From Catenovulum maritimum (GTDB lineage Bacteria; Pseudomonadota; Gammaproteobacteria; Enterobacterales; Alteromonadaceae): a stretch of DNA of 64,000 nt. The position numbers were made by a program, and so were the translations under genes. Below are positions 7,147 through 35,097 of the stretch, in pieces. Where the stretch lies: assembly GCF_001050375.1 (NCBI RefSeq), contig NZ_KQ130496.1:1-64000 (forward strand), given 5' to 3'. Below the pieces are notes generated by a model. It had not been told where the DNA came from. It worked only from the letters and a program-made list of their open reading frames with translations, and made no database searches. The first letter of the stretch is position 1. Each line of letters opens with the position of its first letter.

Positions 7147-8862
7147 ATGAATTTAAGAAATCGATTGAGTATTTTTATGGCTTTAATTGGCCTACTCATT
7201 TTAGGTAGCTTATCAACTATTTTTAATTCCACTTCAGATGTGGGTGAGACAGCTGATCAGCAAAAAATTCAAGTGTTAAAACAAAATGAGTTGGTTGTTA
7301 CCTTGAAAGCTCAAGCTAGTAAAGTTGCACCAGCGGTTGATTTGATGAATCAAATCTCAAATATTCAGCGAGAGTTATTTTCTGTTCAGTACGCTTTTGC
7401 TAACGCGAGTTTAACTTTAACAAATACCGATCTGGTTGCTGCTAATAAAGCCATGAAGCAATTGGAACCAAAAGTTCTGAGCTTTTTAAATAAATTCCCA
7501 AGTATTTCTAACCAAATTCCTGCGGTAAAAGATGCATTTTATGCGGCTAATGTTTACGGCAATAAAATGAATGACTTTTTGTTGGATGATTTATCTGCCA
7601 TTGCAGGTGATATGGCAGTTGGTTTAAATCAGCAAGTCGGCATTATTTCTAAAGTGTTAGATGAATTAAGTCAGCAAAGCACCAAAGACGTAAATAATAA
7701 TATTAGAGATGTTGTCAGTGAGATTAACCAAGTAAACACCAGTGCTGATCTGGTTAGCCAAGGTGTAGATAAAATTATTGATAAGGTTGCTTCGGTTAGC
7801 CAGTTGGTATTTATTGTTGGTATTGTCGTGATTGGCATATCTATGTTGTTAGTTGTTTCCTTCACCCATTCACTCAAAAGTGCAACTAAGCAGGTTGCAT
7901 CAAACTTGACTGAAATTAGTCGGAATAAGAATTTGTCATTAAGAATTAATCGTTCTCAACAAGATGAATTTGGTTTAATTGCAAATGATGTTGACAATAT
8001 GATGGAAACCTTCCAGCAGGTCGTTATGCAAGTTACTTCGACAGCTGATGGTGTAGGACATGAAATTGAGCTAATGAGTAATCGCAGCGATAGTCTAAAT
8101 GATTTAATTCGATCACAGCAAAATTCGCTTGAAACTGTTTCTGCTTCTGTCACCCAAATGTCAGCTTCAGCAGAAGAGGTTTCAACTAATGCGGATGTCA
8201 CCGCCAAAACAACTGAAGATGCAAACGCTATTGGTCAACGAGGCTTAGATGTCGTGGCGCAAAGCATTAGTAACATTCAAGATTTAAGTCACCAGCTAAA
8301 CGTTTCCCAGCAAACTATTAACGATTTAGAAAAAGATGTTGCTAGCATAGGCGGGATCTTAGCTGTTATTGAAGGTATAGCAGAACAAACAAATTTACTT
8401 GCATTGAATGCAGCAATTGAAGCCGCAAGGGCTGGCGAGCAAGGTCGAGGCTTTGCAGTTGTTGCTGATGAAGTTCGTTCACTCGCTAGTCGAACTCAGG
8501 AAAGCACGGTGGAAATACGCCAAACGATTGAGGGGTTACAAAGTCGAACGACTACTGCTGTTTCGGCAATGAAAAAATCAATTAGTGTTAGTAGTAGTAG
8601 TGTTGAGCAAGCTCAAAGCACTTCTGATGCGATTAGCGATATTTGCCGCTCGTTGCATGAGATTATGGATTTAACTCAGTTAATTGCAACCGCTTCTAAA
8701 GAGCAGTCGATTGCATCTGCTGATATATCAACTCAGTTATCCAATCTTTCGAATTCTTCATTTGAGTTGTTACAGCTAGCAAATGAAAATAAAGATGGTG
8801 GGCATAGAATGTTTGATCAGGGCGAAGAGCTAAAATCGTCAATCTCAATATTTAAACTATAG
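7147..8862 (+). CDS. Methyl-accepting chemotaxis protein
   Basis: The 571-aa receptor has TM1 at about residues 8-29 and a helical periplasmic sensor of roughly 190 aa. TM2 ([18 protein letters not shown], about 221-241) leads into a HAMP domain and a long cytoplasmic coiled coil. The conserved hairpin tip is near 407-447 ([30 protein letters not shown]). It relays ligand binding to CheW/CheA. No CheR/CheB-tethering pentapeptide is seen at the C-terminus. The ATG at 7147 gives a standard MNLRNRL start; a TTG at 7126 is in frame but abuts an AAGGA without spacing. The next gene begins two bases after its stop and encodes a sugar-binding-like protein, which hints at binding-protein-assisted sensing. 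Confidence 0.93.
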
Positions 8863-25390: not shown

Positions 25391-26479
25391 TTAGGTATGA
25401 GCAATAATCTCAGTAGCCTCTTTACTATTTGATAAATTGTTCTGAGGCGTTATACCTTTTAACAATCTACCTAAAATATCGGCACCAGTTATAATTCGTG
25501 GTTTGTCACTCCAAACTAACACCGCATCAAACTCTATAGCGGCATCATGGTGTTTATCGTGTTCCTCTTTTGCTTTTAAGTGCCAAATAACATCACCTAC
25601 GGTTAAGTTTGGATCTGTAATGACGAGTGGTCTGTGACAGTAATCATATAAATCAAAGGGTTCATCTAAATTATATAAAGCCGCTCTTAAGGCACCATCC
25701 GCATCCAAAATAAGATGAGGTTCATCACTTTCACTTGTTAATATAACCCAATTACGGCCACTTTTATTTATTTGCCTTAATAGCGGATCGTTAGAATCTC
25801 TCGTAATTTCTGGAAAAATAGGTAAGTCTACTTTTGTGGGTAGTTTAATAATTGACTCGGGATCAATTAATTCACCTTCTTGCGATACTTTGATGTCGTC
25901 AATTGCTAAAAAATTAAGGGCGCCAATACCTTCAACATGGTCTACATCAGCTTCGTCGGCTTCCACATGTTTTTTAATGACTCTTCGTAAATCTTTCTCA
26001 CGAAGATAATCTATACCCTCTTTACCTAGCCAACCGTCTAAAATTAGAGCGCAAGGCTTAGCGACTGGAAATAATAGTATTTGATAAAAAAATAAAACCG
26101 GCGATAAAATTGATGCCATTCTCAGTGCATTTCTTGAGAAATAAGCTTGGGGTAATATTTCACCAAATATAGTAATAAAGCCAGTTGAAAAGGCAAAGGC
26201 GACAAATCCTGCTAGCGCTGAATCAGATAATAGCGTTAATAAGACGTTTATACCGACGTTGCCCCATAATATAGTGGTTAATAAAAAATTAGAATCTTCG
26301 CGTAGTCTTAAAATCTTTTGCGCAGCTTTATCGCCATTAGTCGCTTCAACTTCAAGTTGTAATCTACTCAATGAAAAAAATGCTAGGTTTAAACCAGAAA
26401 ACATAGCTGACTGCGAAATACAAAAAATAATGCCAATCCAAATTAGCGCGTCAGTGCCTAATGAATTAAATATGTCCAA
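25391..26479 (-). CDS. CNNM/DUF21 transmembrane protein, putative Mg2+ or Co2+ exporter
   Basis: The 362-aa protein has an N-terminal DUF21 (CNNM) membrane domain with about three to four helices (ALIWIGIIFCISQSAMFSGLNLAFFSLSRLQLE, ILWGNVGINVLLTLL, FSTGFITIFGEILPQAYF) and a C-terminal cytoplasmic region with weak CBS-like character. SAMFSGLN corresponds to the usual SAxFSG(x)E motif, with the last position altered. Relatives export Mg2+. A GGAG lies six bases before the TTG at 26479, so this start is chosen over a TTG at 26497. It follows mgtE within 30 bp and is co-transcribed. Confidence 0.82.
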   Translation of the reverse strand: MDIFNSLGTDALIWIGIIFCISQSAMFSGLNLAFFSLSRLQLEVEATNGDKAAQKILRLREDSNFLLTTILWGNVGINVLLTLLSDSALAGFVAFAFSTGFITIFGEILPQAYFSRNALRMASILSPVLFFYQILLFPVAKPCALILDGWLGKEGIDYLREKDLRRVIKKHVEADEADVDHVEGIGALNFLAIDDIKVSQEGELIDPESIIKLPTKVDLPIFPEITRDSNDPLLRQINKSGRNWVILTSESDEPHLILDADGALRAALYNLDEPFDLYDYCHRPLVITDPNLTVGDVIWHLKAKEEHDKHHDAAIEFDAVLVWSDKPRIITGADILGRLLKGITPQNNLSNSKEATEIIAHT

Positions 26480-26506
26480 AGTGTTCTCCACAAACAAAAA
26501 TGACTA

Positions 26507-27850
26507 TTAAAGTAAAAAAATTGTGCCTAAGCCTAAAAATGCGACGAAGCCAACGATATCTGTGACTGTTGTTAAAATGACTGAACCAGACAAAGCGGGA
26601 TCTAGCTTAGCTTTATCTAAAATGACAGGAATAATTACACCAGCCAAAGCTGCTGATAATATATTCATTAAAATAGCAACAGCGATGACTAAACCAATTA
26701 AGCTAGAGTCAAACCATAAATAAGCGACTATGCCTATTACGATTGCCCAAACAATCCCGTTGAGCGCACCGACGCTTAGTTCTTTAATCAACAAGGCTCT
26801 ACAGTTAGCGCTATTTACTTGGTCTAGTGCTAATCCTCTAATAATGAGAGTTAAAGTTTGGCTACCTGCAATCCCTCCCATACTCGCAACAACAGGCATG
26901 AGCACAGCTAGCGCAACAACTTCTTGTAAGGTTGCTTCAAATAAGCCGATAAACCAGCTTGCCAAAAAGGCCGTTAATAAGTTGATGCCTAGCCATAAAG
27001 CTCGATTTTTAGCGCTTTTCTTTACGGGAGCGAATAAATCTTCATCTTCATCCATACCCGCACTTGCCATTAGTTGGTATTCGTAATATTCCTGAAGTAG
27101 ATCACCTGCAGTTGTTACATCTACTTTACCCATAAGTTTGCCTTGTTCGTCGACAACCGGTAAGGCCGCAAAACCTGATTTTAAGACGTTGGTTGCAGAT
27201 GAGCTACAATCTGCCGTTACTACTATGGTTGGTATGGTTTCTTCGGCAATATCTGACAATGGGATATGTTCTGGTGAACTGAGCAAATTAATGATTTTAA
27301 CCGCTTCAGAAAATTGCCCATTCCTGTTTATTAAAAATATAGTGTCAGTATGCACTGCTATTTCTCGGCGTGCGATACGCATACCATCACGCACTTTCGC
27401 ATTACTTGGCAGTACTAAAACGTCTTGACACATCCAGTGACCAATTTGTTCGTCTTCGTATTGATTTGCGTTTTGGAAGTATTGACGCTGTTGTTTATCC
27501 ATTACGGATAAGGCGTTCTCTAATAATTCTCTAGGTAAAGAGTCAGCTAATTCAAGCAAATCTTCAGCGTCTATATCTTCAAAAATTCGAGTCCAATTGG
27601 ATTCATCTGTTTCTGCTATTAATATTTCGCGCGGGTCAGCGCGCATTTGAACTAATACATCTAATTTTTTTCTATTAGGTACATTAACCCAAACTTTTAG
27701 TCTTTGATCCAGAGGCAAAGATTCTAGTAATAATGCTATTTCTTCTACATCTTGTGATGCAATTAAGTCTTCAATAGTTGAAGCAGAATCATTCTCAGCT
27801 TGCTCTGCTGCAACGACTTCCTCTATTAATTGAGGTAATTCATCTGCCAT
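26507..27850 (-). CDS. mgtE: Magnesium transporter MgtE
   Basis: The 447-aa protein has the full MgtE order: N-terminal helical superfamily domain (ESLPLDQRLKVWVNVPN), two CBS domains (about 130-250, with VDEQGKLMGKVDV), a connecting helix and five transmembrane helices. The pore signature VLMPVVASMGGIAGSQTLTLIIRGLAL is present. MgtE is a gated Mg2+ channel in the inner membrane. AGAGGG precedes the ATG. It is divergent from the crfX-cmpX-sigX-like module and has a TGTGAC-N17-CGTTAT element upstream on its own strand. Confidence 0.95.
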   Translation of the reverse strand: MADELPQLIEEVVAAEQAENDSASTIEDLIASQDVEEIALLLESLPLDQRLKVWVNVPNRKKLDVLVQMRADPREILIAETDESNWTRIFEDIDAEDLLELADSLPRELLENALSVMDKQQRQYFQNANQYEDEQIGHWMCQDVLVLPSNAKVRDGMRIARREIAVHTDTIFLINRNGQFSEAVKIINLLSSPEHIPLSDIAEETIPTIVVTADCSSSATNVLKSGFAALPVVDEQGKLMGKVDVTTAGDLLQEYYEYQLMASAGMDEDEDLFAPVKKSAKNRALWLGINLLTAFLASWFIGLFEATLQEVVALAVLMPVVASMGGIAGSQTLTLIIRGLALDQVNSANCRALLIKELSVGALNGIVWAIVIGIVAYLWFDSSLIGLVIAVAILMNILSAALAGVIIPVILDKAKLDPALSGSVILTTVTDIVGFVAFLGLGTIFLL

Positions 27851-27894
27851 ATTTAACCCTCTTAATTCTTTTATGTACGACTAACTTCGAATTA

Positions 27895-27923
27895 ATAACG
27901 TAATTAACTACTAAAGAGTCACA
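27895..27923 (-). promoter_or_regulatory. Putative ECF-type promoter for mgtE
   Basis: Read on the minus strand: TGTGAC (27918-27923), exactly 17 bp, then CGTTAT (27895-27900), about 45 bp before the mgtE start. It has the same architecture as the sites before crfX and rimK. Confidence 0.5.
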
Positions 27924-27940
27924 ATTTTTTTTATTATTTA

Positions 27941-27969
27941 TGTGACTTTAAGTCTAATCGCCTCGTTTC
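27941..27969 (+). promoter_or_regulatory. Putative ECF-type autoregulatory promoter before crfX-like gene
   Basis: TGTGAC (27941-27946), 17 bp, CGTTTC (27964-27969), ending 33 bp before the ATG at 28003. The -35/-10 pattern resembles SigX/SigW-class promoters (GTAAC or GAAAC with CGT). Confidence 0.55.
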
Positions 27970-28002
27970 TATAGTCAGGTTTGTAATTGCGAAGAACACT
28001 TT

Positions 28003-28254
28003 ATGAATGAACAAGAACAAAATTTAAAAAAATTATTAGAAAATGGGGCTCCACCAGAGCCTAAACAGCCTTCTTTAAATAATGTAATAAAGCGTGCGCA
28101 ACATATAAACAATGTTAAGGATATTGGAGGCTTATTTGTAAGTTGGTTTTGGGTGCTGTTACTTGGTTTAGGCTCAAATGCTTACACTCATTACCATAAA
28201 ATAAATCGCAATAAACAATCAAAACCAATCCATAAAAAGGAACTAACCAAATGA
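28003..28254 (+). CDS. Small membrane protein, CrfX-like position
   Basis: The 83-aa protein has a polar N-terminal half (MNEQEQNLKKLLENGAPPEPKQPSLNNVIKRAQHIN), one hydrophobic segment (LFVSWFWVLLLGLGSNAYT, about 45-63) and a basic tail. It overlaps the channel gene by four bases (ATGA). In Pseudomonas the order crfX-cmpX-sigX places a small protein of unknown role at this spot, and I assign it by that synteny and size only. A single-pass topology with a cytoplasmic N-terminal segment would suit a sigma-factor regulator, which is inference. Confidence 0.65.
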   Translation: MNEQEQNLKKLLENGAPPEPKQPSLNNVIKRAQHINNVKDIGGLFVSWFWVLLLGLGSNAYTHYHKINRNKQSKPIHKKELTK

Positions 28255-29084
28255 ATGTAACCTCTTGGTTTTCTGCTTTTACTGAGGCACTTAGTCAATT
28301 TTTATTACAGGTCGTTAATTACCTACCTCATATTTTAGCCACTTTGTTAATTGTTTTAGTTGGCTGGTTGCTTTCTAAATTATTAACTCAATGGTTAGCT
28401 AAACTACTGGCTAGAATCGGCTTTAATAAAGTAAGTGAGGGCATCGGCTTAAATAATTTATTGCAAAAAGTGGGTTTTCAACAAACTCCTTCAGAATTAT
28501 GTGGCAGTTTAATTCATATCTTTATCATTTTAGGTATTCTTGTTGCTGCAGCATCTAGCTTAGGTTTTGATTCAATAAGTAATGTGTTCGATGCATTTAT
28601 TTTATATGTGCCTAAAGTGGTTGGAGCGCTCATTATTACCTTATTAGGTTTGTTCATTGCTAATACAGTCAAAAGCCAATTAACCAAGACGTTAGATAAT
28701 TTAGGCGTCGAATATAGCACTACAGCAGCACGTCTGGCTCAGGTCGTTATTTTATTTGTGACATTTTCACTTGCGGTCTCCCAGCTGCAAATTGAAACCG
28801 GATTATTAAATACAGTTTTCGCTGTTGTACTTGGCTGTGTAGGGTTAGCTATTGCATTAGCACTCGGTTTTGGGAGTAAAGATATTGCGAGCAACATGGT
28901 TTCCGGTATCTACGCTCGTGAGCAGCTATTACCAGGTGATGAAATAGAAATAGATGGTTTCACGGGTAACATAGTCGCCATTACAAATGTCACCACCATA
29001 ATAGAAAATAAAAAAGGTCAACGTTTATCTGTGCCTAATAGTAGTTTAATTAATGGCCAATATAAATATAAGCCTTTAGCTTAA
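28251..29084 (+). CDS. cmpX: MscS-family mechanosensitive channel, CmpX-like
   Basis: The 277-aa inner-membrane protein begins with the conserved TM-helix module of small MscS-like channels (LPHILATLLIVLVGWLLSKLLTQWLAKLLARIG, about 25-57). Further helices follow, with AIALALGFGSKDIASNMVSGIYAREQLLPGDEIEIDGFTGNIVAI forming the pore-lining helix and MscS beta domain. It stops soon after that domain, shorter than full MscS-like paralogues. The order small protein, channel, ECF sigma factor matches Pseudomonas crfX-cmpX-sigX, where CmpX affects SigX activity. It is translationally coupled to the small upstream gene. Confidence 0.82.
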   Translation: MNVTSWFSAFTEALSQFLLQVVNYLPHILATLLIVLVGWLLSKLLTQWLAKLLARIGFNKVSEGIGLNNLLQKVGFQQTPSELCGSLIHIFIILGILVAAASSLGFDSISNVFDAFILYVPKVVGALIITLLGLFIANTVKSQLTKTLDNLGVEYSTTAARLAQVVILFVTFSLAVSQLQIETGLLNTVFAVVLGCVGLAIALALGFGSKDIASNMVSGIYAREQLLPGDEIEIDGFTGNIVAITNVTTIIENKKGQRLSVPNSSLINGQYKYKPLA

Positions 29085-29119
29085 TTCAAGCCTAAATTCA
29101 TCATATAGAGCATTGACTG

Positions 29120-29698
29120 ATGTCTTTTAACAGGCGAGGTGTGCCTGCTGCTTCGTTGAATCTATCAAAATTAGATGATGCAGAGTTAGTCAGGATCGCA
29201 CAATTACAGCTCCCTTATGTAACGAGTGCGTATGAAGAGCTGTTTAACCGTTATTTCAAACAGGTTTACCACGTCTGCTACCGCTACTTAAACTCGGTTG
29301 AAGAAGCGGAGGAATGCGCCAATGATACAATGCTTAAAGTGTTTAATAATTTAAAACGTTATGAGGAAAGGGCAAATTTCAAGACTTGGCTATTTCGCAT
29401 TGCACATAACTTATGTATGAGTTTGTTACGGAAAAAACAGCTAGATCAAGTCAGCATTGATGAAGCTATGGAGATAGAATCATCACCAATAGCGGAACAT
29501 GGGGCGCATTCATCTTCAATTGAATTGTTATTAAATCAACTTAGTATAGATGATAGATCTATCATTATTTTTAGAGTAATTAGCGAATTAGAGTTTCAAC
29601 AAATTTCTGATATTACTGGCTTAAAATTAAGTACCGTAAAAATGCGATGTAAGCGAGCATTGGAAAAACTTAATTTGATTTCAGAACAAAAAAATTAA
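29120..29698 (+). CDS. sigX: ECF sigma factor, SigX-like
   Basis: The 192-aa sigma-70-family protein has region 2 (YEELFNRYFKQVYHVCYRYLNSVEEAEECANDTMLKVFNNL and FKTWLFRIAHNLC) and region 4 (IIIFRVISELEFQQISDITGLKLSTVKMRCKRALEKL), with no region 1 or 3. No classical anti-sigma gene follows; the coupled channel and small membrane protein upstream may take that role. Synteny with Pseudomonas sigX supports the symbol. The three TGTGAC-N17-CGTT elements nearby are candidate targets, including one in front of its own operon. Confidence 0.85.
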   Translation: MSFNRRGVPAASLNLSKLDDAELVRIAQLQLPYVTSAYEELFNRYFKQVYHVCYRYLNSVEEAEECANDTMLKVFNNLKRYEERANFKTWLFRIAHNLCMSLLRKKQLDQVSIDEAMEIESSPIAEHGAHSSSIELLLNQLSIDDRSIIIFRVISELEFQQISDITGLKLSTVKMRCKRALEKLNLISEQKN

Positions 29699-29719
29699 TT
29701 TAAAATATCGAACATACTT

Positions 29720-29748
29720 TGTGACTTTTTATAGATTCTCTTCGTTTA
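29720..29748 (+). promoter_or_regulatory. Putative ECF-type promoter for rimK
   Basis: TGTGAC (29720-29725), 17 bp, CGTTTA (29743-29748), ending 34 bp before the rimK ATG, almost the same distance as in front of the crfX-like gene. Confidence 0.55.
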
Positions 29749-29782
29749 GGTTTGTATTAACTTAATTAATAAAGAGAATTCT

Positions 29783-30688
29783 ATGAAAATTGCAGTCTTA
29801 TCCCGTAACCCTAAGTTATATTCTACTCGTCGTTTAGTTGAAGCCGGACAAGCAAGGGGCCACGAAGTAGATGTTATTGATACACTTCACTGCTACATGG
29901 ATATAACAAGTAACAATCCTGCGGTTCGCTTTAAAGGCGAACCATTGCCAAAATACGATGCAATTATCCCGCGTATAGGCGCCTCTGTGACGTTTTATGG
30001 TACTTCAGTTGTACGCCAATTTGAAATGATGGGTAGCTTCAGTGTCAATGAATCTGTTGCGATTAGCCGCTCACGTGACAAATTACGCTCAATGCAGTTA
30101 CTTTCTCGTAAAGGTATCGGTTTGCCTCGTACAGGTTTTGCTCATAGCCCTGATAACATTAAAGACTTAATTAAGAACGTTGGTGGTGCCCCAGTTGTTA
30201 TTAAATTACTTGAGGGTACTCAAGGAATCGGGGTGGTATTAGCTGAAACCAATAAAACGGCTGAAAGCATAATTGAAGCATTCATGGGGGTAAAAGCTAA
30301 TATTCTAGTCCAAGAATTTATCAAAGAAGCAGATGGCGCTGATATCCGGTGCTTTGTTGTTGGAGATAAGGTTGTTGCGGCCATGAAACGCCAAGGTCAA
30401 GAAGGTGAATTCCGTTCTAACTTACATCGTGGTGGTACGGCGCAATTGATTAGATTAACTCGAGATGAACGTGCAACTGCAGTTGCAGCAGCTAAAGCTA
30501 TGGGCCTAAATGTATGCGGTGTTGACTTATTGAGATCTAACCGTGGACCTGTGGTTATGGAAGTAAACTCATCTCCAGGTTTAGAAGGAATTGAGGTTGC
30601 AACAGATAAAGATGTTGCAGGCTTAATTTTTGAATTTATTGAAAATAAAGCTAATTTAGCGAGTACTCGTACTAAAGGTAAGGGTTAA
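29783..30688 (+). CDS. rimK: Ribosomal protein S6--L-glutamate ligase RimK
   Basis: The 301-aa ATP-grasp enzyme adds glutamate residues to the C-terminus of ribosomal protein S6. It matches E. coli RimK from the N-terminal [22 protein letters not shown] through the ATP-binding [40 protein letters not shown] and the metal-binding [14 protein letters not shown]. It is followed after 4 bp by a zinc-hydrolase gene. A candidate ECF promoter lies upstream. Confidence 0.95.
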
Positions 30689-30692
30689 TACC

Positions 30693-31727
30693 ATGGCTGA
30701 CATCCTGCAAATTGGCGAACATAAGATAGGAATAGGCCAACGAGTAAAGCTTGAACTGCCGGTGGCTAGTTTATATTCAGATATTGATGTAACTATGCCG
30801 GTGGAAGTTATACGAGCACGTAAGCCTGGACCGACTTTATTTATTAGTGCAGCTATACATGGGGACGAACTCAATGGTATCGAGATCGTACGCCGCTTAT
30901 TGTTACAAAAATCGTTTAAATTAAGCAAAGGAACACTTATCGCAGTTCCTGTTGTAAACGTCCACGGGCTTTTAAACCAAAGTCGATATTTACCAGATAG
31001 GCGAGATTTGAATCGTAGCTTTCCTGGGTCTGCGAAGGGGTCATTAGCAGGACGTTTAGCTCATTTATTTTTAAATGAAATAGTACACAAGTGCGATTAT
31101 GGAATCGACTTACATACTGGAGCCATTCATCGTAGTAATTATCCGCAAGTTAGAGCTAATTTAGCGGATGAAGAGACTCAGATGCTAGCTCGCGCTTTTG
31201 GCGTTCCTGTATTACTTAATTCAGATTTACGAGATGGTTCGTTGCGTCAAATCGCGGCAGAAGAAGGCACTAAAATTCTGTTATACGAGGCTGGGCAAGC
31301 TTTGCGGTTTGATGAGTTATCAATTCGAGCTGGAATTAAAGGAATTATGAATGTAATGGTTCAACTTGGCATGTTACCACCTCGAAAAAGGTCTAAAACA
31401 GACAGAATAGAACCTTTTGTTGCTTACTCAAGCAGTTGGGTCAGAGCCAGTACCAGTGGAATGGTTCGTGATCTAAAAAAATTAGGGCAGCGCGTTAAAA
31501 AAGGAGAGGTCCTCGCTGAAATTTGTAGTCCAAATGGTAGTTTTATCGAGCCTATAGTCGCGACAAGAAGCGGCATTATTATAGGTAAGCAAAATATCCC
31601 ATTGGTACAAGAAGGCTCCGCTATGTATCACGTTGCAAACTTTGAGCAAGTTGGTGACGTGGTGGAACACATTGAGCAATTGAACGATGCGTTTCAAAGC
31701 GAAGGTGAAATGTTAGATATTGAATAG
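30693..31727 (+). CDS. Succinylglutamate desuccinylase/aspartoacylase-family zinc hydrolase
   Basis: The 344-aa M14-like metallohydrolase shows the zinc ligands in SAAIHGDELNG (H and E, about residue 53) and the later H in GIDLHTG, with the substrate-Arg region DRRDLNRSFPG. A C-terminal biotinyl-lipoyl-like beta domain (SGMVRDLKKLGQRVKKGEVLAEICSP) follows, as in the AstE/ASPA-like group. The natural substrate is unknown. It is tightly linked to rimK (4 bp), so it may act on glutamylated or N-acyl-glutamate-type substrates; this is inferred from context. Confidence 0.85.
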   Translation: MADILQIGEHKIGIGQRVKLELPVASLYSDIDVTMPVEVIRARKPGPTLFISAAIHGDELNGIEIVRRLLLQKSFKLSKGTLIAVPVVNVHGLLNQSRYLPDRRDLNRSFPGSAKGSLAGRLAHLFLNEIVHKCDYGIDLHTGAIHRSNYPQVRANLADEETQMLARAFGVPVLLNSDLRDGSLRQIAAEEGTKILLYEAGQALRFDELSIRAGIKGIMNVMVQLGMLPPRKRSKTDRIEPFVAYSSSWVRASTSGMVRDLKKLGQRVKKGEVLAEICSPNGSFIEPIVATRSGIIIGKQNIPLVQEGSAMYHVANFEQVGDVVEHIEQLNDAFQSEGEMLDIE

Positions 31728-31736
31728 GGGATAAAC

Positions 31737-32243
31737 ATGAAATTATTAAGAATTATATTTACTAGTTTTGTTTTATTTACTAGCAACCCAGTCCATTCGT
31801 TTGTTATTGAACTTAATGAAATTCAAATCAACAGCTTAATGTCGGTTTATTTTCCGCTTGCCTTTAATTATGAGCAAGCAGAGATACAATTGACGAACGC
31901 GAATGTAACTGTAAAAGGTGAAAACAAACGTCTACAAGTGACCGCACATTTTAAAATACAGCAAAGTGCTGATTTTATGATAGGCACAGTCACTGTCGAT
32001 GGCCAAGTCGCTTATGATAAAGCCTTACATAAGCTACAAATTATAGAGCCAAAATTAATCAATGCGGATATTACAGAGTCTAGTTTTAAGCGTAATGATA
32101 TTAACGATTGGCTGCAAAAAGCCTTTCATCACTCGTTACCTATTATTGTTCTGTTAGACTTTAAACAGCTCAATTTCAGAGGCTTAGCACTACAACCAGT
32201 TAGAGTCGAAGTACTAACGAAAAGTGTCTTAATTGAAATCTAG
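31737..32243 (+). CDS. Exported DUF1439-like protein (YceB-like)
   Basis: The 168-aa product has a signal peptide (about residues 1-21, ending VHS) and no lipobox. The mature part, alternating strands ending in a helix-rich stretch (DINDWLQKAFHHSLPIIVLLDF), resembles the DUF1439/YceB periplasmic family with a lipid-binding-like fold. The family call is by overall pattern and moderate. It starts 9 bp after the zinc hydrolase and is probably the last gene of the rimK unit. Confidence 0.6.
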   Translation: MKLLRIIFTSFVLFTSNPVHSFVIELNEIQINSLMSVYFPLAFNYEQAEIQLTNANVTVKGENKRLQVTAHFKIQQSADFMIGTVTVDGQVAYDKALHKLQIIEPKLINADITESSFKRNDINDWLQKAFHHSLPIIVLLDFKQLNFRGLALQPVRVEVLTKSVLIEI

Positions 32244-32250
32244 ATCTTAA

Positions 32251-32275
32251 AAGCTCAGGATGAACTCCTGAGCTT
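32251..32275. terminator. Hairpin between convergent genes
   Basis: A perfect 10-bp stem AAGCTCAGGA/TCCTGAGCTT with a 5-nt loop. The minus strand continues into TTAAGA, the plus strand has no T run. It probably serves the convergent pair. Confidence 0.6.
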
Positions 32276-32304
32276 ATCGGTTCTGATATTAGCTCAAATT
32301 TAAA

Positions 32305-35097
32305 TTAGTTTGCAGTAAAGACAGCTTCTATACTGACATCAGCAGAAGCATTGCTAACAGTATAGTTTGCTAGAGCACCTTTAGATTCTCCATTTACTAG
32401 GATATCTGATAATTTATAGCCAGTATCCGCTTTAAAGGTAAAGGTTTGCGATTTGCCCTCTAATATTTCCATACTGCCTTCTAGTGGTTTAATAGAGCCA
32501 TTATCAGAACTAGTTAAAGAAATAGTATGCAGTTGTGTTGAACAACCATGATAAACAATGTTTTCGGTTGTTGCTGAATCTACACTGTTATAGCTATCTT
32601 GGTTTGAATTATCTAAGCACTTACCGTCGATCGTGACGTTGTTAAAACTGACATCAGATATTTTATACATATCGCCATTATCTAGTATTGTGCCTTCAAT
32701 TAAACCTTTAGATGCCTTGGGTGTTTGTTGGTATCCACTGCCATCAAAAATAACCTGCTTACCAGTTACTGTGATATTTTCAAAATGAACACCTTGAACT
32801 TTACCTACGGTCGTGCGATTGGCGTGTTGATTATCAATTTTTAATTCGGCTTTATTTAACTGACTAGAGTTATTATGCAAATTAACTAAAGCTGGAATAT
32901 TACCGTCAATATGTAAATTACGAATTAAGACATTGGTACCAGACATATCAAAGTCGATTTGTGACATAACAATACCATTGTTATTGCCTAATCCTCGCCA
33001 CTCTGGATAAATAATATAGTTATTAATAAAAACGGAATTTTCAGTGTCATAACCACCATTCCAACCCAAAGTCACAATAGAGCCATTGCTGCCTTGCCAC
33101 ATGACAGTATCCGTAACGATAAGTGACTTGTTATAGAAAACGTCGTCAACGGCTTTAAAGAAACTTTTATCTATTATGTTTGGTTTGTTACCCCAAGGAC
33201 GAGCGCCATCGTTATTAGCATGCCAACCCCACAGTTTAAAATGTCGGTAGGTGCTTTCATTACCTAAATTCACACCGTGACCAGCAGAATCACAAACTGC
33301 AACGCCTTCAATAATATTTCTATCACCACTTAAGCCGATAAGTGAAGCGCCTTCCTTGTATGAGTCTACGCCTAGTACACCACCATTAGTATCTAGTTTC
33401 TTTGCCCATTTAAAATCACGCCCAGAAAGGACACCACGACCGAATATTTTTACATCATTTACACTTGTGTATATACGCCCATGCACATAAGCGCCACCAG
33501 CAAAATAGACTTGTTGGCCATCAGATAAAACAGGTCCCATATTACTTACTGTTTCGGTTTTCCAGACGTTAGAATCAGACAAGTCTGGGTTGGTATCTTT
33601 GAATAAACGACCGAGATCATGATAGCCAGGTGGGAAGTAAATAGTATCCGCAGCTGTCATTTCAGCTTTAGTTGAAGTTTCAGAATAAACATGCACGCCT
33701 GCGTCATTCATATCTGGTATATCTTTTTCTTCAGGATCAGCAAAGAGCATAAAAGCGTGTCTGACAACCCCATCACTGGTTTGTTTATTGTCATCCGTTT
33801 TAAAATTAACGGCGACATATTTTTGTTCATCCATAGTGAAAGTGACTGACATACCATCAGCTGAAACGTTTGGAGTAATACCATAAGGTGATGGGACTAT
33901 TTCAACATCTTGCGTGCCTGTTCCCCACAGCTTAGTAACCGTTACGTCGATAGGATCACAGAAACTAGAAGAAAAAGATGCCCTGTTAAATGTACGAATT
34001 TCCTCGGGCGTTATCGCTTTAAATTCTGAAACCCAAGAATCCGCTATTTCAATATCTTTAGAGATAGACTTAATGACTTGAGCAGGAATTGTTTTTCCGT
34101 TTTGGCTAAAGCTAACAGAGTACCTGTCAGATAGAAATGCTTCACTAGGTGCTGTCGGCCAGTCGTAAGTTTCGATACAAGTTGCTTTACCCGAGATTTC
34201 AATCTCACGAATACCCGCATCTATATCCATTAATACTTTGTCATCGGTTAACTTTATCATGGCGGTTAAGCCTGCGCCCGAAGCCGCTTTTGATTCAACA
34301 TCACTATCAATTGAATCATCCGCGCCTTGATTCGCAGTAACAAACTCTTTAGTTGCGGTTGGTGCAGCAAATTGAACTTGATAGCTACCTGCTGCTATTT
34401 TTTCAAATTGATATTCACCTTGGCTATTCGATTGCGTTTGTTTTTCGATTTGGCCATTAGCATTGAGTAGCCAGATGTTGGCGTTTGCCACCCCAGGCTC
34501 TTGATCATCTAGGTTGTTTTTATTGTTATCGTTAAAGTATCTACCTGAAATTCCAGCAAAGACAGATGAGACAACTTCCGATTTTGATAACTTGATTAAA
34601 TCAGTTTCACCTTGATTGTTGTTATTGGCTGTAACCACGTCACTATCTATAGTGTCGTTACCAATATTGGCCGAGACAAACGCATGATCAGAAATCGGAG
34701 CTGAAAACCTGACTTTATAGCTAGCGGCTTCAAGACGAGTAAAAGAAAATGTACCGTCTGAACTTGTTTTTGTCTGCTGAATGACTTGGTCAGAAGCATT
34801 TAATAGCCATACATCGGCTAAAGCTAGCCCAGATTCTACATCAAACTGATTATTGTTGTTTTCATCTATAAAGTAGCGCCCAGAAATAGACGCATTTGGG
34901 CTATTATCAATAGGTTCCGGTTGGCTATCTGAACCGCCGCCTCCGCCGCAACCAATTAAAGTACCTGCTAAGATCAAGCTAGAATACTTTACTGCAAAAA
35001 AATATTTTTCATTCTGTTTCCTATAATGCTTACTATGCGAATAATTTAAATATTTGAGCACCGTGAGGCGCGACATTAGTCGTGAATAAAGAATCAA
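32305..35097 (-). CDS. Exported beta-helix glycoside hydrolase-like lipoprotein (clan GH-N, GH49/GH28-like)
   Basis: The open frame (930 codons) encodes a lipoprotein signal with lipobox LIGC (Cys50). Two SdrD-B-like beta domains (about 68-165 and 183-290, each beginning ISGRYF) are followed by a beta-sandwich (about 300-450) and a right-handed beta-helix. The helix carries NNDGARPW (near 625) and VDDVFY (near 650), like the acidic catalytic sites of clan GH-N enzymes such as GH49 dextranases. A C-terminal InlB-type repeat (about 855-930) ends it. The frame overlaps the upstream GH27 gene by 65 bp. The expected start, ATG at 35012 behind AGGAAA, is one base out of frame, so initiation is unclear (see homopolymer entry). 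Substrate is unproven. Confidence 0.78.
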   Translation of the reverse strand: MILYSRLMSRLTVLKYLNYSHSKHYRKQNEKYFFAVKYSSLILAGTLIGCGGGGGSDSQPEPIDNSPNASISGRYFIDENNNNQFDVESGLALADVWLLNASDQVIQQTKTSSDGTFSFTRLEAASYKVRFSAPISDHAFVSANIGNDTIDSDVVTANNNNQGETDLIKLSKSEVVSSVFAGISGRYFNDNNKNNLDDQEPGVANANIWLLNANGQIEKQTQSNSQGEYQFEKIAAGSYQVQFAAPTATKEFVTANQGADDSIDSDVESKAASGAGLTAMIKLTDDKVLMDIDAGIREIEISGKATCIETYDWPTAPSEAFLSDRYSVSFSQNGKTIPAQVIKSISKDIEIADSWVSEFKAITPEEIRTFNRASFSSSFCDPIDVTVTKLWGTGTQDVEIVPSPYGITPNVSADGMSVTFTMDEQKYVAVNFKTDDNKQTSDGVVRHAFMLFADPEEKDIPDMNDAGVHVYSETSTKAEMTAADTIYFPPGYHDLGRLFKDTNPDLSDSNVWKTETVSNMGPVLSDGQQVYFAGGAYVHGRIYTSVNDVKIFGRGVLSGRDFKWAKKLDTNGGVLGVDSYKEGASLIGLSGDRNIIEGVAVCDSAGHGVNLGNESTYRHFKLWGWHANNDGARPWGNKPNIIDKSFFKAVDDVFYNKSLIVTDTVMWQGSNGSIVTLGWNGGYDTENSVFINNYIIYPEWRGLGNNNGIVMSQIDFDMSGTNVLIRNLHIDGNIPALVNLHNNSSQLNKAELKIDNQHANRTTVGKVQGVHFENITVTGKQVIFDGSGYQQTPKASKGLIEGTILDNGDMYKISDVSFNNVTIDGKCLDNSNQDSYNSVDSATTENIVYHGCSTQLHTISLTSSDNGSIKPLEGSMEILEGKSQTFTFKADTGYKLSDILVNGESKGALANYTVSNASADVSIEAVFTAN
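34996..35012 (-). other. Homopolymer frameshift site at the natural start of the beta-helix gene
   Basis: On the minus strand ATG (35010-35012) is followed by A5, TA and T7. As read, this ATG reaches a stop after seven codons. One extra A or T would join it to the long frame and give MKxxFFAVKYSSLILAGTLIGC, a textbook lipoprotein signal with AGGAAA upstream. A single-base deletion, slippage-based switching or a sequencing error all fit. Confidence 0.65.

Follow-up and report, generated by a model that had tools for sequence, protein, structure and literature searches.

Predicted SigX-type promoters around a cfrX-cmpX-sigX operon, mgtE and rimK in Catenovulum maritimum

The stretch of DNA analyzed here (the window) comprises 64 kb of Catenovulum maritimum contig NZ_KQ130496.1, from a genome of 4.55 Mb. 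It carries a gene for a SigX-like extracytoplasmic function (ECF) sigma factor and three copies of a two-part sequence element, TGTGAC-N17-CGTT. The three elements share a 17-bp spacer, and all of them lie where promoters would be expected, inside a stretch of 1.9 kb around the sigma factor gene. Two of them are divergent and stand back to back in the intergenic region between mgtE and cfrX, and the third precedes rimK. The predicted promoters and the genes at the locus are listed below (distances are counted from the last base of CGTT up to the ATG).

27897..27923 (-), predicted SigX-type promoter of mgtE; exact TGTGAC-N17-CGTT, 46 nt to the ATG
27941..27967 (+), predicted SigX-type promoter of cfrX-cmpX-sigX; exact TGTGAC-N17-CGTT, 35 nt to the ATG
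29720..29746 (+), predicted SigX-type promoter of rimK-astE-DUF1439; exact TGTGAC-N17-CGTT, 36 nt to the ATG
25391..26497 (-), CNNM-domain membrane protein (Pfam CNNM), 9 nt behind mgtE
26507..27850 (-), mgtE, Mg2+ transporter (Pfam MgtE, MgtE_N; NCBIfam mgtE 217.1 bits, below the cut-off of 232.75)
28003..28254 (+), cfrX-like small protein, candidate SigX regulator (BLAST 34-35% to the cfrX-like genes of loci L051 and L052; no match in Pfam or NCBIfam)
28251..29084 (+), cmpX-like mechanosensitive channel of the MscS family (Pfam MS_channel_1st_1, MS_channel_2nd), overlapping cfrX by 4 nt
29120..29698 (+), SigX-like ECF sigma factor, 192 aa (Pfam Sigma70_r2, Sigma70_r4_2; NCBIfam SigX model PRK09640 148.7 bits; tree)
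29783..30688 (+), rimK, ribosomal protein S6--L-glutamate ligase (NCBIfam PRK10446 458 bits, cut-off 331)
30693..31727 (+), astE, AstE/AspA-family deacylase (Pfam AstE_AspA_cat), 4 nt behind rimK
31737..32243 (+), DUF1439-like protein (weak Pfam DUF1439 match, 20.1 bits against a cut-off of 25.9), 9 nt behind astE

The sigma factor contains sigma regions 2 and 4 only, and its length agrees with the criterion of about 190 aa for ECF factors. Its PRK09640 score (148 bits in another run) was the best among 85 NCBIfam families but lay below the cut-off of 194, and the protein is therefore called SigX-like rather than SigX. The CNNM gene and mgtE probably form one operon.

The three elements are very probably promoters recognized by RNA polymerase with the SigX-like sigma factor (29120-29698), and together they would define a small local regulon consisting of its own operon, mgtE-CNNM and rimK-astE-DUF1439. 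TGTGAC(TTT) would serve as the -35 half and CGTT as the -10 half, held at a fixed spacing of 17 bp. Its targets for activation would be cfrX-cmpX-sigX, the operon in which it is itself encoded, then mgtE-CNNM, the divergently transcribed Mg2+ pair, and finally rimK-astE-DUF1439, the operon located downstream. By analogy with the proposal for Pseudomonas aeruginosa, SigX activity is probably tuned to envelope tension through CfrX and the CmpX channel. A change in the envelope would then release SigX and raise expression of its own operon, of Mg2+ transport and of the RimK operon, so that membrane stress would be coupled to Mg2+ transport and to glutamylation of ribosomal S6. Activation of its own operon, the Mg2+ pair and rimK by the sigma factor had been predicted in an initial annotation of this DNA, and it is now supported, at the level of sequence, by conservation of the element, by a promoter code that tracks the sigma clades and by recurrence of the targets. 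The comparisons below show that the elements exist and are conserved, that they track the sigma clades and that both target classes recur; transcription from the three elements, its dependence on SigX and the signal that governs it are inferred.

Within the window, the pattern TGTGAC-N16..18-CGTT matched three times, at the three elements alone. Dinucleotide shuffles of the window (100) gave a mean of 0.18 matches and a largest count of 2, with none reaching three. The initial annotation had placed three TGTGAC-N17-CGTT sites with identical spacers before mgtE, a crfX-like gene (cfrX here) and rimK, and all three proved to be exact matches. It had also put two of the sites 33-34 bp before their ATG; the placement of the elements held, with coordinates that ran about 2 bp too far, the actual distances being 35 nt for cfrX and 36 nt for rimK. 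A scan of positions 26400-32400 with the sigma-70 consensus returned 13 matches, none of them in the mgtE/cfrX or sigX/rimK intergenic regions.

Loci related to this one were collected in a contig scan with six SigX proteins, which yielded at least 80 loci, and 38 of these (L056-L093) were examined gene by gene. In 24 of the 38, cfrX, cmpX and sigX occur together, with the sigma gene leading in L080 and L083. The pattern TGTGAC-N16/17-CGTY matched 44 times in these 24 cluster loci against 6 times when reversed, compared with 1 against 0 in the remaining 14 loci and 3 against 2 in a further 42 (L094-L135). By manual count, an exact element precedes cfrX, an OmpA-family gene (ompA), mgtE, astE or rimK in 21 of the 24 cluster loci, with the element starting about 30-210 nt upstream of the ORF start used; the case is unclear in L058, L072 and L083. 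The loci are not all independent, as L059 is the same record as L052 and some loci from numbered genomes repeat named records. A second set came from the family of genome G220, taken as Pseudomonadaceae from its high-scoring SigX, CmaX and OprF. A SigX match was present in 35 of 39 genomes of this family, and the element was found upstream of cfrX in 24 of 29 loci (L240-L268), 23 times with N17 and once with N18, always with CGTC; the same DNA held 2 reversed matches. In G220 itself (L235), the element before cfrX has a spacer of N16. A CorA-like cmaX gene neighbours the cluster in 17 of the 29 family loci, which end within that region. Conservation of the element in relatives, which the initial annotation had proposed as a check, was borne out at the predicted places in both sets.

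Sites before the two other targets were also found in relatives. Exact mgtE sites are present in L057 (Pseudocolwellia agarivorans), L085 (Pseudoalteromonas luteoviolacea, with the mgtE start at 8769 being the authors' choice) and L352 (genome G572), and a site with one mismatch is present in L056 (Aestuariibacter GS-14). Genome G572, from the Paraglaciecola genus group, carries mgtE at 2.52 Mb on a contig of 5.41 Mb whose sigX is found at 5.23 Mb. Its exact N17/CGTC site, with 20 nt between the site and mgtE, turned up (E 0.041, 16.7 bits) in a scan with a scoring model built from 28 sites of other organisms only (R2), outside the training set and at a place that had not been targeted. For rimK, L061 (P. 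arctica) has an exact site 34 nt before the ATG, at a distance of about 9 kb from sigX, and L347 (G572) has one with a single mismatch (AGTC) 35 nt before the ATG; a further exact site near rimK in G572 points away from that gene. An astE element is present in L085, and astE recurs near rimK or sigX in L056, L085 and L347. Proteins weakly similar to the DUF1439-like protein (20-28%) also occur near sigX in other loci. The rimK gene of L056 has no element, and neither do 14 tested mgtE genes that are more distant than the 65% ortholog of G009. Of 37 cluster loci (626 kb), 8 contain an Mg2+ gene (mgtE or CNNM), compared with none of 49 control loci (661 kb); the loci are related, so that the eight do not count as independent events. 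Since the rimK and mgtE sites are present in some SigX genomes and missing in others, MgtE and RimK are, on the predicted sites, lineage-specific members of the regulon.

This distribution bears on the alternative that SigX reads the cfrX promoter alone and that the elements at mgtE and rimK are passive neighbours, a divergent mirror site in one case and a point of read-through from sigX in the other, with no SigX-driven transcription of their own. Both genes directly adjoin the cluster in the window, most cluster loci have no mgtE (6 of 37 do) or rimK (2 of 37) nearby, and several SigX genomes have no element at these genes. The exact mgtE site of G572, megabases away from sigX on the same contig, the rimK site of L061, at its distance from sigX, and the distance of 34-36 nt between site and rimK ATG shared by the window, L061 and L347 all argue against passive neighbours, which we consider unlikely.

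Two observations outside these target sets touch on the same genes. In P. agarivorans (G379), a gene for a small hydrophobic protein of 63 aa is preceded by an exact N17/CGTC site at L346 5836 (-), some 12 kb away from sigX, and is a further candidate SigX target. At L084 9884-15106, a SigX-like gene of a member of the Verrucomicrobia (Roseibacillus) has rimK (71%) and astE (40%) within 5 kb, and no exact element.

In a tree of 48 rows, the window SigX was placed in clade A (15 rows, 100/100), on a long branch of 1.4. Clade A joins L063 and L064 (17 rows, 99/92), and this group forms a 39-row group with clade B and the G220 family (97/83), in which the order among the three is weak (94/61). 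Sites near the sigma genes were compared using a search pattern that allowed C or T alone at the last -10 base, other bases being excluded by construction. For clade B, 15 loci with sites hold 34 sites within 4.5 kb, all with CGTT and 31 of them with N16. For clade A together with L063 and L064, nine loci with sites hold 17 sites, all N17/CGTC, and L061 has none within 4.5 kb. The distant loci L072, L079, L080 and L083, each with one CGTC site and spacers from N16 to N18, stand outside both counts. Four genomes (G454, G487, G528 and G540) carry paralogs of both clades; each of their A loci (that of G528 read as L060) shows a single N17/CGTC site, and eight N16/CGTT sites are spread over the four B loci. 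Genomes G569 and G580 also have two SigX matches, both at the B level. Judged by these sites, both the spacer and the last -10 base vary with the sigma clade and not with the species.

It could be argued that the element is instead bound by a conventional transcription factor, such as one of the CRP/FNR type, or that it is read by another ECF sigma factor of the genome. TGTGA resembles a CRP half site, and the genome encodes 13 matches to this sigma factor at E 0.001 or better, itself included. The element, though, is bipartite and includes a -10-like half, its halves being 16 or 17 bp apart in most cases. Both this spacing and the last -10 base go with the SigX clade and not with the species, in the four dual-paralog genomes as well, and the rimK element is missing in all seven same-genus genomes that have no sigX. 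A reader other than SigX is on these grounds highly improbable. The seven genomes in question (G001-G007) have no sigX or cmpX ortholog and an mgtE of 36-37% at best; from the missing orthologs, the cluster was either lost in them or gained in the lineage of the window.

The window combines the clade A spacer of 17 with three promoters that all end in CGTT. A change from CGTC to CGTT common to all three, next to a sigma factor of clade A, is most readily explained if a single factor reads all three promoters. The specificity loop of the window SigX reads YEERANF, and clade A proteins have F-x-x-R-[AS]-S-F. Asn86 of the window protein is located four residues before the invariant Trp90. In Mycobacterium SigH, Asn77, four residues before Trp81, contacts the flipped T(-9) of a GTT -10 element (PMC6411747). 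The two asparagines were mapped onto one another by their spacing from the Trp, and a PDB search listed SigH (5zx2) among the relatives. A rule based on this one residue was dropped, since clade B proteins mostly have Ser at that position and yet have T promoters, so that the code is not a one-residue code. It is conceivable, and put forward here as a tentative idea, that SigX-like factors use a two-part address code (a spacer of 16 or 17; T or C at the last -10 base) that insulates two paralogs within one cell, and that the lineage of the window rewrote it, the loop going from RASF to RANF and the three promoters jointly exchanging CGTC for CGTT. A natural test of ECF promoter insulation would be provided by genomes that hold two SigX paralogs.

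Two models were used to score sites. The first (R1) was trained on 31 sites including the three of the window and is circular for that reason, and R2 was therefore built without them. With R1, the window sites took ranks 1-3 over the 4.55 Mb (rimK 22.9, mgtE 21.7 and cfrX 18.3 bits), and the next site scored 15.8 bits. With R2, the rimK site ranked first (19.0 bits), the cfrX site fourth (14.6) and the mgtE site fifth (14.4); rank 2 lies inside a gene (C13, a 424-aa ORF), and at rank 3 (C2) the -35 half alone matched. In 16 SigX genomes, 29 of 35 R2 matches at E 0.05 or better lay within about 5 kb of sigX, many of these sites being in the training set. Only three convincing promoters were found here in the genome scans with R1 and R2. 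Outside Pseudomonas, the SigX regulon is suggested by these matches to be small and local.

Several results weigh against a SigX-driven regulon. The pattern TGTGAC-N16..18-CGTT occurs 20 times in the genome against 25 times when reversed, the background frequency that the initial annotation had named beforehand as a refutation, and the bare count was for that reason rejected as a demonstration of a regulon. A stricter pattern, TGTGACTT-N15-CGTY, which passes over N16 sites and the mgtE site of the window, gave 21 matches against 44 reversed over 24 family genomes. R2 sites in same-genus genomes that have no sigX reach 22.6 bits, so that single sites are not significant by score alone; the two best of these were inspected and both lie inside ORFs. 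R2 gives no match at E 0.05 or better in the clade A genomes G594 and G604. Five of the 29 G220-family loci (L263-L266 and L268) have no element before cfrX, the rimK element is missing in all four SigX genomes tested for it (G009, G030, G014 and G020), and G009 has an mgtE ortholog of 65% identity with no element. With the bare pattern at background, the case must rest on position and conservation. The same background count is what could be said for three coincidental matches in AT-rich intergenic DNA, but none of the 100 window shuffles gave three, and the recurrence of the element at the same genes in relatives makes chance very unlikely, indeed almost negligible.

The best reading of the system is that it is a variant of the known Pseudomonas SigX-CfrX-CmpX system. 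In P. aeruginosa, the cfrX promoter region is SigX-dependent and SigX controls cfrX-cmpX (PMC7641640), both genes are lower in a sigX mutant (PMC3832394), and CfrX, CmpX and OprF have been modelled as a mechanosensing complex that controls SigX (PMC8999054). The window shares with SigX of group ECF102 the cfrX and cmpX (MscS) genes directly upstream of the sigma gene and a SigX-type element before cfrX, whose last -10 base is T and not C as in the G220 family. An OmpA/OprF porin beside sigX is lacking, as none of the eight proteins encoded between 25391 and 32243 matches OmpA in Pfam. In the cmaX-cfrX-cmpX and oprF arrangement of P. aeruginosa, the Mg2+ gene is the CorA-like cmaX, adjacent to cfrX-cmpX and with an AlgU-dependent promoter region (PMC7641640), whereas the window has MgtE and CNNM with a SigX-type site of their own. 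The -10 element is CGTC there and CGTT in the window, and sigX is followed by oprF there and by rimK-astE in the window. SigX regulons of P. aeruginosa include hundreds of genes (PMC4362757), in contrast to the three convincing promoters of the window genome.

Two other arrangements are comparable. The Colwellia-type SigX (clade B) with a divergent ompA is like the window in its genes, its -35 and its CGTT -10, but it has mostly N16 spacers (31 of 34 sites), a sigma factor of another clade and an OmpA-family porin as its main partner. The L085 locus of Pseudoalteromonas luteoviolacea B, with CNNM-mgtE, cfrX-cmpX-sigX and astE and one element per unit, comes closest to the target set of the window; it differs in its basal clade B sigma factor, in having astE rather than rimK first after the downstream promoter, and in the N16 spacers of two of its three elements.

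The published 5' untranslated region of cfrX is 13 nt long (PMC7641640). In the G220 family, about 26-29 nt separate the end of the site from the likely cfrX ATG, and a 13-nt leader would place the transcription start at least 13 nt after CGTC. Such a distance is greater than is usual for an ECF promoter. The leader length speaks neither for nor clearly against promoters read by SigX and may depend on the start codon chosen.

The initial annotation took such a regulon to be undescribed, which is correct in part: for P. aeruginosa, SigX control of cfrX-cmpX has been published, as has the adjoining CorA-type gene (PMC7641640). A literature search found nothing joining SigX to TGTGAC, SigX to rimK, or mgtE to an ECF sigma factor together with a mechanosensitive channel, and a published consensus in the original SigX regulon or ECF classification papers is possible. 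The SigX promoter consensus was said in 2020 to be not precisely defined (PMC7641640), and a de novo SigX logo exists (PMC4362757). The comparison made here gives a sharp consensus, TGTGAC-N16/17-CGTY, common to the Pseudomonas-type family and the Alteromonadales. P. aeruginosa SigX has been proposed as a mechanosensing sigma system (PMC8999054), and for the window it is predicted that Mg2+ transport and S6 modification would answer to one envelope signal. Because Mg2+ genes of unrelated families (CorA, MgtE and CNNM) recur beside this sigma factor, the comparison suggests that Mg2+ belongs to the signal or to the response.

CfrX proteins share one hydrophobic stretch, with 11 of 14 proteins (that of the window and those of 13 other loci) reaching 1.6 or more in a 19-residue Kyte-Doolittle window; the two proteins of the G220 family and the Ketobacter protein fall below 1.6. 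CfrX is described as soluble in a review (PMC8999054), and from its hydrophobicity it may be a membrane protein in the Alteromonadales.

Two further observations concern OmpA-family genes. In L054, three near-identical copies 92-93 bp apart (4992, 5084 and 5177, (-) strand), each with a complete SigX-type element, stand before the OmpA-family gene of genome G014. In L058 (8516-8792; Paraglaciecola sp. MB-3u-78), cfrX is preceded by a stretch of 56 aa that is 88% identical to an OmpA-like gene and has a TGTGAC-N17-AGTC element upstream; this stretch is perhaps a decayed porin gene.

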